Positions 54,389-60,279 of a stretch of DNA of 64,000 bases are shown in pieces. How positions within the stretch are numbered: position 1 is the stretch's first letter; every line of letters begins with the position of its first letter. The DNA comes from an uncultured Atopobiaceae bacterium. Its GTDB lineage: Bacteria; Actinomycetota; Coriobacteriia; Coriobacteriales; Atopobiaceae. A model generated the notes under the pieces. The model had not been told where the DNA came from. It saw only the letters and a program-made list of their open reading frames with translations, and ran no database searches. Position numbers and translations under genes: made by a program. The DNA is taken from assembly GCA_947625405.1 (NCBI GenBank), contig CANQOF010000004.1, positions 62,001 to 126,000 on the forward strand. Reading direction: 5' to 3'.

Positions 54389-54457
54389 TGCAACAAAGCG
54401 GAAACAATCGAGCGAGCGCACGTCAGCGGGGGCACTGTGCGCACACGAGGAGAGAGC

Positions 54458-55825
54458 ATGGAAGAACGACTCGCCGAGGCAGGAGCCATCACCGCCCGGG
54501 ACCTCGAGGTGGTGGCGAAGCGCCTACGTAGTGATCGCGCGTCCATCGTCGCGCGCAATGCCACCACCGCGGCCGGCATTCGCGTGGCAGCGCGCAATCC
54601 CGAGGCCCCGCGCGCCGTGGGCGAAACCTTCGATCTCGAGATTCGCCAAGGCGAGCCCACCGATCAAGAGCACACCGGCCGTTGCTGGATGTTCGCCTCC
54701 CTGAACACCATGCGCGCGCGGGTGATCGAGCGCCTCGATCTCAAGACCTTCGAGCTCTCGCAGGCCTACCCCCTTTTCTTCGACAAGCTCGAGAAGGCGA
54801 ACTGGTTCCTCAACAACATGATCGACACGGCGGACGTCGAGCTCGAGACGCGCCTCGTCTCGTTCCTCCTCCAGAGCCCCGTGCAGGATGGCGGGCAGTG
54901 GGACATGCTTCGCGACCTCGTGGTGAAGTACGGCGTCGTGCCCAAGGACGCCATGCCGGAGACCGCGTGCTCGAGGGCCACGCGCGAGATGGACCTCTAC
55001 CTCACTCGCTACCTGCGTGGATGCGCCAAGCGCATTCGCGTGGCGGCGGGGGAGGGTGCCACGCGAGGCGAGCTCGATGAGCTCAGGAAGACGATGGTCG
55101 CCGACGTCTACACCCTCCTCGTCACCTGCCTCGGCGAGCCACCGAGGGAGTTTGACGTGCGCCTGCGCGACAAGAAGGGCGCGCTCGTGCTCTGTGGCCG
55201 CTATACGCCGCAGAGCTTCTTCGCCGACGTCATCCAGATGAACGTGATGGACTACATCTCGGTGATCTCCGCCTGCACGCCCGACAAGCCGTTCTATCGC
55301 GCCTACACCGTGAGCCGTCTTGGAAACGTGCAGGAAGCGGGCGGCGTGCGCTATGTGAACCTCCCCATGGAGAGCTTGAAGCGCGCGGCGATCTCCCAAC
55401 TCAAGGATGGCCTTCCCGTGTGGTTCGGCTGCGATGTGGACCAGAGCTTCCTGCGCCCAGACGGCGTCATGGACATCCACGGCATCGACGTCGACGACCT
55501 CTTCGGCTTCGGCATCGAGGATTGCCTTGATCGCGGAGACCGCCTCATGTACGGCGAGAGCGCGATGACGCATGCGATGGTGCTCGAGGGCGTGGACTTC
55601 GACGACGACGGCAAGCCCGCGTTCTGGAAGATCGAGAACAGCTGGGGCAAGGAGCACGGGCGCAAGGGCTTCGACGTGTGCACGGACGAGTGGTTCGACC
55701 AGTACGTCTACCAGGTGGTGGTGGACAAGAAGTACCTCACGAAGGAGGAGCTCGCCGCCTATGAGGGCGAGCTCACGAAGCTCGCCCCGTGGGATCCCAT
55801 GGGCTCGCTCGCGGAGCTCAACTAA
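54458..55825 (+). CDS. pepC: Aminopeptidase C / bleomycin hydrolase family (first copy)
   Basis: Cytoplasmic cysteine aminopeptidase of peptidase family C1B, 455 residues. The catalytic Cys is in HTGRCWMFASLNTMR, the His in SAMTHAMVLEGVDFD and the Asn in FWKIENSWGKEHG. These enzymes form hexamers and trim peptides from the N-terminus. ATG 54458 follows GAGGAGAG; GTG 54437 is an alternative without one. It ends in TAATG shared with the second copy. Confidence 0.94.
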   Translation: MEERLAEAGAITARDLEVVAKRLRSDRASIVARNATTAAGIRVAARNPEAPRAVGETFDLEIRQGEPTDQEHTGRCWMFASLNTMRARVIERLDLKTFELSQAYPLFFDKLEKANWFLNNMIDTADVELETRLVSFLLQSPVQDGGQWDMLRDLVVKYGVVPKDAMPETACSRATREMDLYLTRYLRGCAKRIRVAAGEGATRGELDELRKTMVADVYTLLVTCLGEPPREFDVRLRDKKGALVLCGRYTPQSFFADVIQMNVMDYISVISACTPDKPFYRAYTVSRLGNVQEAGGVRYVNLPMESLKRAAISQLKDGLPVWFGCDVDQSFLRPDGVMDIHGIDVDDLFGFGIEDCLDRGDRLMYGESAMTHAMVLEGVDFDDDGKPAFWKIENSWGKEHGRKGFDVCTDEWFDQYVYQVVVDKKYLTKEELAAYEGELTKLAPWDPMGSLAELN

Positions 55826-57312
55826 TGGCGGCGAAGGAGGCCGGAAGCGCCGACACCCCCGCCCGCCCCATCGAGATCGAGCAAATCGGCGAGCTCACGA
55901 AGCACTTCGCGCGGAGCCGGGCCAATCGCATCGCGCGCAACGCCGTCACCTCCGATGGCGTCGCCAAGGCGGCGCGCAACCCCACCGCCTTCCGCGCGTA
56001 TGCGAAGCCCTTCGACGTGGCGCTCGAGGCGCCCACCCTCATCACCAACCAGAAGAAGACCGGCCGCTGCTGGCTCTTCACCACCTATAACACGCTGCGC
56101 CAGCGCTGGGCGCGCGCCATCGATTGCGGGAGCGTCGATTTCTCCCACGCCTACGGGCAGTTCTTCGACAAGCTCGAGAAGGCGAACGCCTTCCTTGGCC
56201 ACGTGGTCGAGACGGCGGATCGGCCCTATGACGATCGCGTGGTGGAGCACCTCATGCGCCACCCCATTCCCGATGGCGGAGAGTGGCGCTTCGCGGCGAA
56301 CCTCATCGAGAAATGGGGGATGGTGCCCGCCGAGGTGATGCCCGAGACGGTGTGCTCCGAGAATTCGGACGCCATGAACACGGTGCTCGAGCGGCTGCTC
56401 AGAAAGGACGCGAGCGAGCTCCGTCGAGCCTTTGGCAAGGGCGCGAACGAGGAGGAGCTCCGCGATATGATCGCGGGAATGGTCTGTGCCGTGCATCGCG
56501 TGCTGTGCGTGTGCCTTGGCGAGCCGCCCGCGAGCTTCGATCTCGTGCAGGAGCTGGGCCCGGAGGCCACGCTGGACGACGAGCATCACGTGGGCGCCAC
56601 GGTGGAGATCCAAGGCCCGCTCGAGGGGCCGGGCGGCCATCCGACCGAGCGCAAGGGCTCGAAGCGCATCCTCAAGCACCCGAACCTCACGCCCCAGGCC
56701 TTCGCTAAGGATTACCTCGGCTACGACGCCTCCGACTACGTGGACCTCATCTCCTTCCCGCTCGAGGACCTTCCCTACCACGAGGTCTATGGCGTGCGAT
56801 GGCTTGATTCGGTCGTGGGCGGCGAGCCCATGCGCTTCCTGAACGTGCCGATGGAGGAGCTCGAGGACGCCGCCATGGCGTCCCTCGACGCCGGCGAAGC
56901 TTGCTACTTCGGCTGCAACGTGGGGCAGAACTCGCCCCGTTCGCTCGATGATTTTCCCGGCATCCTCGGGCTCGACACCATGGACTACGACGGGCTCTTC
57001 GACATCGACCTCTCCATGGGGAAGGCCGAGATGTTCGAGCTCCGCGAGGCCTACCTCACGCACGCGATGACCCTCCAGGGCTACTCGCGCGACGCGAATG
57101 GTCGTCCGAGCGCGTGGCGCGTGGAAAACAGCTGGGGCAAGGATTCCTGCGATCAGGGCTACTTCACCATCGCCGAGGATTGGTGGCAGCTCTACTCGGG
57201 CGAGGTGGTCGTGCGCCGCTGCTTCGTGGACGGGAAGACCCTCGAGCTTTGGGATGGCGCAAAGACGACGATGACGGAGCCTTGGGGCGTGATCGCTCGC
57301 CGCGAGCGGTAG
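55825..57312 (+). CDS. Aminopeptidase C / bleomycin hydrolase family (second copy)
   Basis: A 495-residue C1B peptidase. Catalytic residues are in KTGRCWLFTTYNTLR (Cys), EAYLTHAMTLQGY (His) and WRVENSWGKDSC (Asn). It is clearly homologous to the upstream protein but much diverged and about 40 residues longer, with an insertion rich in Glu, Gly and Lys (about 250-285) before LTPQAFAKDYLGYD. Its ATG shares one base with the upstream stop, so the two are co-translated and might form mixed hexamers or have different specificities. Confidence 0.93.
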   Translation: MAAKEAGSADTPARPIEIEQIGELTKHFARSRANRIARNAVTSDGVAKAARNPTAFRAYAKPFDVALEAPTLITNQKKTGRCWLFTTYNTLRQRWARAIDCGSVDFSHAYGQFFDKLEKANAFLGHVVETADRPYDDRVVEHLMRHPIPDGGEWRFAANLIEKWGMVPAEVMPETVCSENSDAMNTVLERLLRKDASELRRAFGKGANEEELRDMIAGMVCAVHRVLCVCLGEPPASFDLVQELGPEATLDDEHHVGATVEIQGPLEGPGGHPTERKGSKRILKHPNLTPQAFAKDYLGYDASDYVDLISFPLEDLPYHEVYGVRWLDSVVGGEPMRFLNVPMEELEDAAMASLDAGEACYFGCNVGQNSPRSLDDFPGILGLDTMDYDGLFDIDLSMGKAEMFELREAYLTHAMTLQGYSRDANGRPSAWRVENSWGKDSCDQGYFTIAEDWWQLYSGEVVVRRCFVDGKTLELWDGAKTTMTEPWGVIARRER

Positions 57313-58239: not shown

Positions 58240-59706
58240 CTATTTGCCGCCCACGAAGCGCCGCGATGCCTCCGTGGCTGCGGCGCGCGCTTTCTCCACC
58301 CATCCATCGCGGAAGAGCTCGCAGGTGAGGGGGTCGGGAGCGAGCGGGTGCGTAGGGTCGTGCAAGATGGCGTTCACGCGAGAGCCTCCAAGGCACTTAG
58401 GGAAGTGCGGGCATGCCGCGCACCCGGGGTTTTCGTGGAGGTAGTCCTCAGCGCTCACGCCCACGTACTCGAGGAACGTGGAATCGGCGAGGCACGCCCG
58501 AAGCGGTGTTTCGGAGAGGAGCGGAAACGGTTGCTCGCCGAGGGCCTCGGCAAATTCCGTTCCCGCCAAGACCATCGAGGGCATGAGGCGCCCCTCCACG
58601 GAGAGGTAGGGCTCCAGCCGCTCGCGGCGCATGAGCGGATAGCTGGCCGGCCTGCCGGGGGGATATTCGACGGTGATCCGGAAATCCTTGGGGCGCGCTG
58701 CGTCGACTGTGAGCATCGGTCCCAGCCTCAGGCGCTCCAAGGGGAGCCTTCCCCTCGCGAGCCCCGCCTCGAAGTAGGCGGGTATGGCGGCGATGAGCGC
58801 CTCCGCGAGCTCCGCCGCGCTGAGCGAGCGGTACTCCCTTCCCGCCTCGTCTTCCACCCAGCGGCCTTCGTCGCACATGAGGGACACGTCAAGCTCGCGC
58901 GCGCCCCACGAGGAGAGGGCGAGCGCCGTCTCCACGATCGAATCCATGTTGCCCGAGTGCGCGGTGAGCGTCGCGACCGTGCGGAATCCACGCCTGTCGA
59001 GGAGCCGGATCGCGTGCTCGGCGGCCGCCTCGGCGCCGGGCACGCCGCGAAGCCAGTCATGGTGGCCCACCCCATCGAAGGAGAGGACGAATTGGGGACG
59101 TTGCCCCAGCTCCTCGAGGGTGTCGAGCAGCTCCTCGCGCACCAACGAGCCGTTGGTGGAGATGGCGGCGATGCGGATACCTCGGCGGCTGAGGAGCTCG
59201 GCGATAGCGGCGAAGTCCGCCCTAAGCAACGGCTCGCCGCCGGTGAGGGCAACGGCGGGAATCCCGCAGGCGGCGATCTGGTCGGCGATCGCCTCGATCT
59301 CGGCGAAGCTGGGCTCGCGTCCTCCGCCCGCAACGCTCGAGACGGCGCCTTTAGAGCCCGCGTCCATGAGGCAGTGGCGGCAATGGTAGTTGCAGCGTCC
59401 GGTGATTGACCAGTGGATGAGCCGGACGAATCGGTTCGGGAAGCTCCGATGGGCCTGCTCGGGATCGATGCCCTCGCCCGGCGCGCAGGGCTCGATGAGG
59501 CCGCGGCACGCGAGGTCGGCGGCCGCCTCACGCACGTCTGCGGGGATGGTGGGAAGGTCGAGGTCGACGCTCCCATCGCAAAGCTCGAGGCAGGCGAACT
59601 CCTTTGCGGAGAGCGGCGCGAGCGCGAGGCGATCGGCGTCGAGCACCACGTGCGGGAGACCCTGCCACGACCGCAGGCGATAGGGTTGTTTCAAGCGAAA
59701 GCGCAT
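58240..59706 (-). CDS. Radical SAM/SPASM peptide maturase
   Basis: A 488-residue enzyme that probably modifies the adjacent Nif11-type peptide. Residues 1-95 form a small N-terminal domain that could be a PqqD-like peptide-recognition element. The radical SAM cluster motif is CNYHCRHC (Cys105, 109, 112), followed by ALTGGEPLLR. The C-terminal SPASM region binds extra iron-sulfur clusters: Cys405, then CAACPHFPKC (Cys429, 432, 438) and Cys462. No ribosome-binding site precedes ATG 59706; the upstream bases are pyrimidine-rich. The modification type (thioether, carbon-carbon link or epimerisation) cannot be told. Confidence 0.88.
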   Translation of the reverse strand: MRFRLKQPYRLRSWQGLPHVVLDADRLALAPLSAKEFACLELCDGSVDLDLPTIPADVREAAADLACRGLIEPCAPGEGIDPEQAHRSFPNRFVRLIHWSITGRCNYHCRHCLMDAGSKGAVSSVAGGGREPSFAEIEAIADQIAACGIPAVALTGGEPLLRADFAAIAELLSRRGIRIAAISTNGSLVREELLDTLEELGQRPQFVLSFDGVGHHDWLRGVPGAEAAAEHAIRLLDRRGFRTVATLTAHSGNMDSIVETALALSSWGARELDVSLMCDEGRWVEDEAGREYRSLSAAELAEALIAAIPAYFEAGLARGRLPLERLRLGPMLTVDAARPKDFRITVEYPPGRPASYPLMRRERLEPYLSVEGRLMPSMVLAGTEFAEALGEQPFPLLSETPLRACLADSTFLEYVGVSAEDYLHENPGCAACPHFPKCLGGSRVNAILHDPTHPLAPDPLTCELFRDGWVEKARAAATEASRRFVGGK

Positions 59707-59748
59707 GTGGGGGAGGGCGATCGTGTGGGTATTTCGTGATCTGAGCGC

Positions 59749-59782
59749 GGGCCTCGCATCGAGATGTTCCGATGCGAGGCCC
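59749..59782 (-). terminator. Perfect hairpin between RiPP precursor and maturase
   Basis: GGGCCTCGCATCG (59749-59761) and CGATGCGAGGCCC (59770-59782) form a perfect 13-bp stem with an 8-base loop. It lies 26-59 bases after the precursor stop. With no T-tract it may terminate only part of the transcripts or stabilise the precursor mRNA, giving more precursor than enzyme. Confidence 0.6.
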
Positions 59783-59807
59783 TTGCCACAGGTCGAGCGA
59801 TCAGATG

Positions 59808-60092
59808 CTAGTACCAGAGGATCATGGGCTCGTCGTCAACGCCGAAGAGGCTGCACTGATCCCCCGGGAGTCCCATGCCACCGGTGACGACCTTGAGCTC
59901 CTCCTCGGAGATCTCCGCCGAGGGCTCGCGGACGAAGTCCTCGGCCGCGAGGGCGAGGCCGTGGCTCTCGGCGAAGCCGAGGATCGCCTCCATGCGGCTC
60001 GTGCGCAGGCTCTCGAGAAGCTCGCCAAACTCACGACGTAGATCCTCGTCTTGGGAGAGCGCCTCGTTGAAGGCCTTCATGTTCTCGGTCAT
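59808..60092 (-). CDS. Nif11-type RiPP precursor peptide
   Basis: A 94-residue peptide. Residues 1-72 resemble Nif11 leader peptides: a helical start (MTENMKAFNEALSQDEDLRR), GFAESHGLALAAEDF in the middle, and EISEEELKVVTGG at the end. The double glycine at 71-72 is the likely cleavage site. The predicted core MGLPGDQCSLFGVDDEPMILWY has 22 residues with one Cys, three Asp and a C-terminal Trp-Tyr. AAAGGA lies 6 bases before the ATG at 60092, so it should be well translated. The maturase gene follows on the same strand. No peptidase-exporter is adjacent. Confidence 0.85.
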   Translation of the reverse strand: MTENMKAFNEALSQDEDLRREFGELLESLRTSRMEAILGFAESHGLALAAEDFVREPSAEISEEELKVVTGGMGLPGDQCSLFGVDDEPMILWY

Positions 60093-60131
60093 GGCAATTC
60101 CTTTCGCAGTTGGGCGTGGGTTCTGAGGGTG

Positions 60132-60137
60132 ATGATA
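60132..60137 (-). promoter_or_regulatory. -10 box of the RiPP operon
   Basis: On the minus strand TATCAT (60137 to 60132) lies 39 bases before the precursor ATG in the 199-base divergent gap. No good -35 box was found, which may mean an extra activator or another sigma factor. Confidence 0.4.
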
Positions 60138-60279
60138 GGTTTGTGTGGAGACGGCGAAGCGCACGTTGCCGAGCGGTGGGGGCGAAGGCGGCGTTCGTGC
60201 CGCGCGAGGCAACATTCGTGCGCAATGGCCACATGCCTTCCCCGCATGTGACGAGGCGACGCGGCACGCCCCGCTCTGC

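Follow-up and report, generated by a model that had tools for sequence, protein, structure and literature searches.

A Nif11-leader RiPP locus of an uncultured Atopobiaceae bacterium with a radical SAM maturase that lacks the Aux I cysteines

Background

What does a radical SAM/SPASM enzyme do to its peptide when the ligands of one of its auxiliary clusters are missing? This question is raised by two neighbouring genes within a 64,000-nucleotide stretch of DNA (the window), which was taken from contig C4 of a 1.72-Mb assembly. The near relatives of this genome are MAGs of uncultured Atopobiaceae bacterium with Lapin (rabbit) in their isolate names, and the source organism is an uncultured bacterium of the rabbit gut. 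Which functions the two auxiliary clusters of SPASM radical SAM enzymes serve is not yet settled (PMC10470005, PMC9012708). The enzymes described here have undergone a natural deletion of Aux I, which has become fixed in several species, with selection acting on the remainder of the enzyme and on its substrate. Our reading, to which we assign a probability of about 0.6, is that the two genes form a dedicated RiPP pathway with an Aux-I-less maturase and that, Aux I being gone, the product is most likely not a thioether.

A conserved precursor-maturase pair

Table 1. Coordinates of the genes and putative regulatory elements of the locus within the window
Feature	Position	Strand	Remark
Nif11-leader RiPP precursor, 94 aa	59811-60092	minus	stop codon 59808-59810
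Maturase, 488 aa: predicted RRE, radical SAM and SPASM-type domains	58240-59706	minus	
Intergenic region with a 14-bp stem-loop, GGGCCTCGCATCGG...CGATGCGAGGCCC	59720-59785	minus	lies between the two genes
-10-like element, AACCTATCAT	60126-60140	minus	between direct repeat and precursor start
Direct repeat, CACGAATG-N13-CACGAACG	60192-60220	minus	putative LytTR-like operator

Translation confirmed both open reading frames at their predicted positions and placed them on the minus strand, which the original prediction had left unspecified. As predicted, the precursor consists of a leader (residues 1-72) that ends in the GG cleavage motif VVTGG and of a 22-residue core (residues 73-94, MGLPGDQCSLFGVDDEPMILWY) with one Cys. 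The CxxxCxxC motif expected in the enzyme is also present, as CNYHCRHC, within a match to Pfam Radical_SAM (E 3.4e-20). The encoded peptide is small and probably secreted, and it has a dedicated radical enzyme. That the locus combines a Nif11-type precursor with a peptide-modifying maturase is supported by co-occurrence, synteny, the family-wide neighbourhood and the fold.

The two genes adjoin each other in the window genome (G000), in three other species of its Atopobiaceae genus (G001, G002, and G005) and in a genome of another family (G265), so that their adjacency is kept across two families. The G265 leader is 43% identical to that of the window and its maturase 58-61%, values read from two contig pieces, one of them apparently chimeric. 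The pair is flanked in G001 and G002 by the same HAD/PepC-PepC and CCA/galK genes as in the window, while the G005 contig terminates within the maturase gene. In a fourth congener, G003, precursor and maturase are found on the ends of two contigs, which meet within the maturase gene, and in G004 just the 3' end of the maturase was found, at a contig edge. All six genomes of the genus thus contain the maturase gene. Wherever the flanks of a precursor orthologue are intact, its neighbour is a radical SAM enzyme, which goes against the possibility, considered in advance, of homologues occurring without one. The radical SAM neighbour of a precursor homologue in G263 is of a different kind from the window maturase.

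Both genes are under purifying selection. Between the window and G001, dN/dS was 0.35 for the precursor, 0.22 for its core alone and 0.26 for the maturase, for which values ranged from 0.26 to 0.33. The core is better kept between these genomes (20 of 22 residues identical) than the leader (59 of 72). Conserved gene order and synteny in the congeners, together with the low dN/dS of both genes (well below 1), indicate that the pairing is not due to chance. The precursor region of G003 (G003:C17, L096 1-1000; also L047) is about 95% identical to that of the window, whereas the neighbouring genes are 62-86% identical at the protein level. This mismatch suggests recombination or a chimeric MAG, and for this reason we left the near-identical G003 precursor out as independent evidence of constraint. 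Beside the locus, two adjacent PepC-like (bleomycin hydrolase-type) peptidase paralogues of about 35% identity (window positions 54437-57312) occur across the genus.

An undescribed maturase family with an RRE-like N-terminus

The window maturase reached no cut-off in the NCBIfam profile search, and the known NCBIfam maturase classes were therefore rejected. Its match to TIGR04103 scored 48.7 bits against a cut-off of 725 and covered the core domain only; its paralogues likewise remained below the cut-offs of the nif11-class maturase models, and the PapB model was not among the best matches. The classes TIGR04064 and TIGR04103 do resemble this locus in that a Nif11 precursor is partnered with a radical SAM/SPASM enzyme. 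Relatives were found in 47 of 397 Coriobacteriales genomes (E <= 1e-30), and no family member was found outside this order among 396 genomes drawn evenly across the phylum. A scan of genome contigs with A1 as query matched only three congeners, a viral scan returned only a remote 28% match to the barrel, and our search of the literature on radical SAM RiPPs of Coriobacteriia found nothing specific. The locus is a genuine Nif11 RiPP locus whose maturase family is undescribed, and it gives access to these RiPP maturases and their peptides in Coriobacteriales of the gut.

The AlphaFold2 model of the maturase has a pLDDT of 92, and its residues 1-75 form, at high confidence, a beta/alpha pattern such as an RRE would have. 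The best PDB folds retrieved by Foldseek were SuiB and SkfB, both RRE-bearing and both matched over the whole length. The N-terminus would thus be an RRE winged-helix domain, predicted from fold and family to bind the leader. A Nif11/GG precursor lies within 1.5 kb of 42 of the 54 other copies examined, all of which keep the AC1 cysteines discussed below. Genomic context and fold together give good support to a peptide-maturing role. We also considered a non-peptide substrate, as heme, MoaA and NirJ families top the match list; these matches cover the radical SAM core only, and the RRE-like N-terminus and the Nif11 precursors beside nearly all relatives led us to reject this possibility.

Other arrangements occur within the family. 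Contig C9 of the window genome (L039 9406-12252) carries a single Cys-rich Nif11 precursor followed by two family maturases in tandem. Both maturases have the Aux I cysteines, which makes them natural comparison enzymes within the same genome. Meanwhile, a single family maturase in G315 (contig C36, L123 6915-10664) is surrounded by five Nif11 precursors with five-Cys cores.

The precursor and its core

The window precursor matched the Nif11 model TIGR03798 with 26.2 bits (E 6.9e-6), below the cut-off of 32.3. This cut-off was passed by the orthologues of G002 (33.2) and G265 (45.0) and by the leader homologue of G263 (43.8 bits). The genus cores follow the pattern MGLPGDQCSLFG[VA][DE]DEPMILWY, while those of G002 and G265 read FDDSDDCHIAAASDQYFLKWL and MGMFDTWEDEPPFGNNDGWNIR. 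Cores of the window clade contain no Cys or one: Cys80 is found in all genus precursors, even in the otherwise divergent core of G002, and the G265 core has none. The only residue type common to all clade cores is a Trp that follows an acidic stretch and lies 1-4 residues away from the C-terminus (..ILWY, ..LKWL, ..GWNIR).

In G263 (contig C17, L093 8334-10180), the gene after a leader 49% identical to that of the window runs on the opposite strand and encodes another kind of radical SAM/SPASM enzyme, closest to TIGR04334 but below its cut-off; here the leader is shared and the maturase swapped. The window genome itself holds at least nine further Nif11 precursors (L040 7292-12177 on contig C13, L042, L043, and L044). 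Many of the further precursors have CGCxxIGxxKGCxCF cores and no maturase nearby, and these are probably processed in trans.

Loss of the Aux I cysteines

The SPASM cysteines announced by the original prediction are there in part: the Aux II set (C429, C432, C438, and C462) is present, and the Aux I set is missing. We compared 55 sequences (alignment A2), namely 51 rows from outside the clade and those of the window, G001, G002, and G003. The radical SAM cysteines C105, C109, and C112 and the four Aux II cysteines are invariant, as is the GGE motif. Columns 359, 377, and 442, in turn, hold Cys in all 51 full-length relatives and Met359, Ser377, and Ser442 in the clade; no other columns are fixed in all others yet changed in the clade. 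The G265 enzyme has M, S, and F at these positions and the G004 fragment shows the last Ser, so that the cysteines are missing from every clade member that covers them.

The missing residues correspond to AC1 of PapB, whose ligands are C352, C370, and C421, while C408, C411, C417, and C440 form AC2 (PMC10470005). The 18-residue spacing between PapB 352 and 370 equals that between 359 and 377 of the window enzyme, and the series 408-411-417-421-440 agrees with 429-432-438-442-462 to within one residue. The ranthipeptide synthases PapB and CteB share the domain order RRE-radical SAM-SPASM with the window enzyme, whose profile matches CteB (5wgg) at E 4e-13, and they share the ten-Cys plan with its relatives, with identical AC1 and near-identical AC2 spacing. 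The window clade differs from them in lacking all three AC1 cysteines and in its cores with no Cys or one.

From its sequence, the clade is a natural Aux-I-less variant inside the family, and the window enzyme is predicted to carry one auxiliary cluster, Aux II. This is reminiscent of the Twitch enzymes (SkfB, BtrN, MoaA), which likewise have one auxiliary cluster; SkfB was the best profile match and second fold match of the window maturase. Twitch domains retain the Aux I site and are devoid of Aux II (PMC6231123), whereas the window enzyme appears to be reversed, with Aux II kept and Aux I lost.

In the tree, AC1 loss falls on a single branch (SH-aLRT 100), obtained with a quick method and to be read with caution for long-branch effects, as the stem branch of the clade is long (0.88 changes per column). 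Among loci that keep AC1 and have an adjacent precursor, 37 of 42 have at least two core Cys, and the relatives mostly have 2-9. Since the loss of AC1 is one evolutionary event, its tie to Cys-poor cores counts as a single correlation.

Possible chemistry of the maturase

Radical SAM enzymes cleave SAM and then abstract a hydrogen atom, RRE domains bind leaders, and C39 peptidase/ABC proteins cut after GG. In the pathway that we propose, the precursor would be transcribed from a promoter with a LytTR-type direct repeat, and the N-terminal RRE of the maturase would bind the Nif11 leader, as suggested by fold and family. The [4Fe-4S]/SAM site would then make a 5'-deoxyadenosyl radical that abstracts a hydrogen atom from the core, a step for which the intact CxxxCxxC and GGE motifs argue. 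With Aux I gone, the substrate radical would neither be trapped by a cluster-bound Cys thiolate nor be oxidised through Aux I. We favour two possible outcomes: either the core is epimerised, or a cross-link that does not depend on AC1 forms around the Trp near the C-terminal end.

Calpha epimerisation, a redox-neutral change that would be finished by a hydrogen-atom donor of the enzyme, is tentatively the single most likely chemistry. Redox-neutral chemistry is favoured because Aux I is the observed electron acceptor in the C-C bond formation of SuiB (PMC9012708), and because epimerases manage with at most one auxiliary cluster and employ a critical Cys (PMC8326336). The radical SAM epimerases (EpeE/YydG, proteusin epimerases) thus resemble the window enzyme in working without a full SPASM cluster pair. 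EpeE was matched in the barrel by profile and by Foldseek, with no significant similarity beyond it, and the catalytic Cys of the epimerases was not confidently aligned with the window maturase. A possible candidate for the donor is C278, which follows just after strand 271-276 and is a Tyr in G265. As a counterpoint, Aux II could take over electron transfer.

An oxidative cross-link of the C-C or C-O type in the C-terminal segment that holds the Trp (streptide-, daropeptide-, or cyclophane-like), formed through Aux II or an external acceptor, we consider possible but doubtful. It would be consistent with the Trp shared by all clade cores and with DarE, which cross-links Trp and has an Fe content for only two clusters (PMC9055067). 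The best structural match also points this way: the streptide Lys-Trp cyclase SuiB (5v1s, E 4.7e-14, TM 0.58/0.65) has the order RRE-radical SAM-SPASM, the clade cores contain Trp, and the G002 core contains KW. However, SuiB has two fully ligated auxiliary clusters, sends its electron to Aux I, has no Nif11 leader, and is only 13% identical to the window enzyme, and the clade cores share no motif such as WxK, with Trp penultimate in the window core. We rejected a reaction of the mycofactocin type, a decarboxylation of the terminal Tyr (MftA ends in VY), as the orthologous cores end in WY, WL, and NIR.

A thioether on the single core Cys, of the ranthipeptide or sactipeptide type, for which Aux II or some other ligand would have to stand in for Aux I, is unlikely. 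The presence of Cys80 in all genus precursors would agree with it, and the AC1-keeping relatives beside Cys-rich cores do look like thioether maturases. In synthases of these types, though, Aux I is the cluster expected to engage the substrate thiolate, and its ligands are absent from every clade member that covers the positions; PapB deprived of AC1 still forms 5'-dAdo but makes no cross-link (PMC10470005). The view that a thioether is installed at the core Cys is thereby weakened, and so is that of this Cys as the modification site, since it is unconserved and absent from the G265 core.

It is quite improbable that the maturase is drifting to loss of function or is a mere leader-binding or chaperone protein: one cluster is lost and the stem branch is long, but every cysteine of the radical SAM and Aux II sets is invariant, as is the GGE motif, dN/dS is low, and the gene is kept throughout the genus. 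Just as improbable is that precursor and maturase are independent neighbours and another enzyme modifies the precursor in trans, for although many Nif11 precursors of the window genome are distant from all maturases of this family and the G263 leader homologue has a different partner, the adjacency persists across two families.

Comparison of the clade with the Aux-I-bearing paralogues of the same genome, which we infer to act on similar Nif11 leaders, would be a direct test of whether Aux I decides between thioether and other chemistry.

Regulation and export

The first base of the direct repeat upstream of the precursor (Table 1) lies 128 nt from the start codon. Its 21-bp period fits LytTR sites, which usually consist of 9-bp repeats 12 bp apart (PMC6193735), and we regard it as a putative operator. 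The -10-like element, putative and called by consensus only, contains AACCTATCATC, which is identical in the aligned congeners. A relaxed repeat pattern gave 37 matches in the six genus genomes and none with the reversed control; for 24 sites, a start codon with a ribosome-binding site follows at a distance of about 118-131 nt, in most cases that of a Nif11 precursor. The repeat is common to most Nif11 precursors of the genus and was not found upstream of those of G265 or G263. In the window genome, the same 21-bp-period repeat precedes, by about 125 nt, dispersed Nif11 precursors on contigs C1, C6, C7, C9, and C13 (L039-L043).

The shared repeat likely marks a genus-wide Nif11 regulon, with an orphan LytTR protein as its putative regulator. 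We further postulate that a SPASM enzyme operating on Aux II alone, a reverse Twitch arrangement, arose from a Cys-cross-linking ancestor and carries out another reaction on a Cys-poor Trp core, under this LytTR regulon of dispersed Nif11 peptides; the full combination has somewhat less than an even chance of being correct.

Between the two genes, the stem-loop has a predicted fold of -41.8 kcal/mol (z -3.05). The stem is kept in the alignment of four genus genomes, as conservation without covariation, and is absent from G002. It might plausibly act as an attenuator or RNA-processing site that lowers the maturase relative to the precursor.

After cleavage behind GG, the core would be exported by an NHLM/C39 ABC pair whose genes lie at another place in the genome. 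This pair (ABC1/ABC2, contig C1), which scores above the NCBIfam cut-offs, holds the only C39 ABC gene of the window genome.

The window genome has two LytTR proteins. The orphan one, on contig C18, is encoded downstream of an AIM24-like gene (L155 7458-8345) and is present in all six genus genomes. The promoter of the AIM24-like gene carries the same repeat, with one mismatch in the window genome and exactly in G003, which suggests autoregulation of the orphan LytTR protein.
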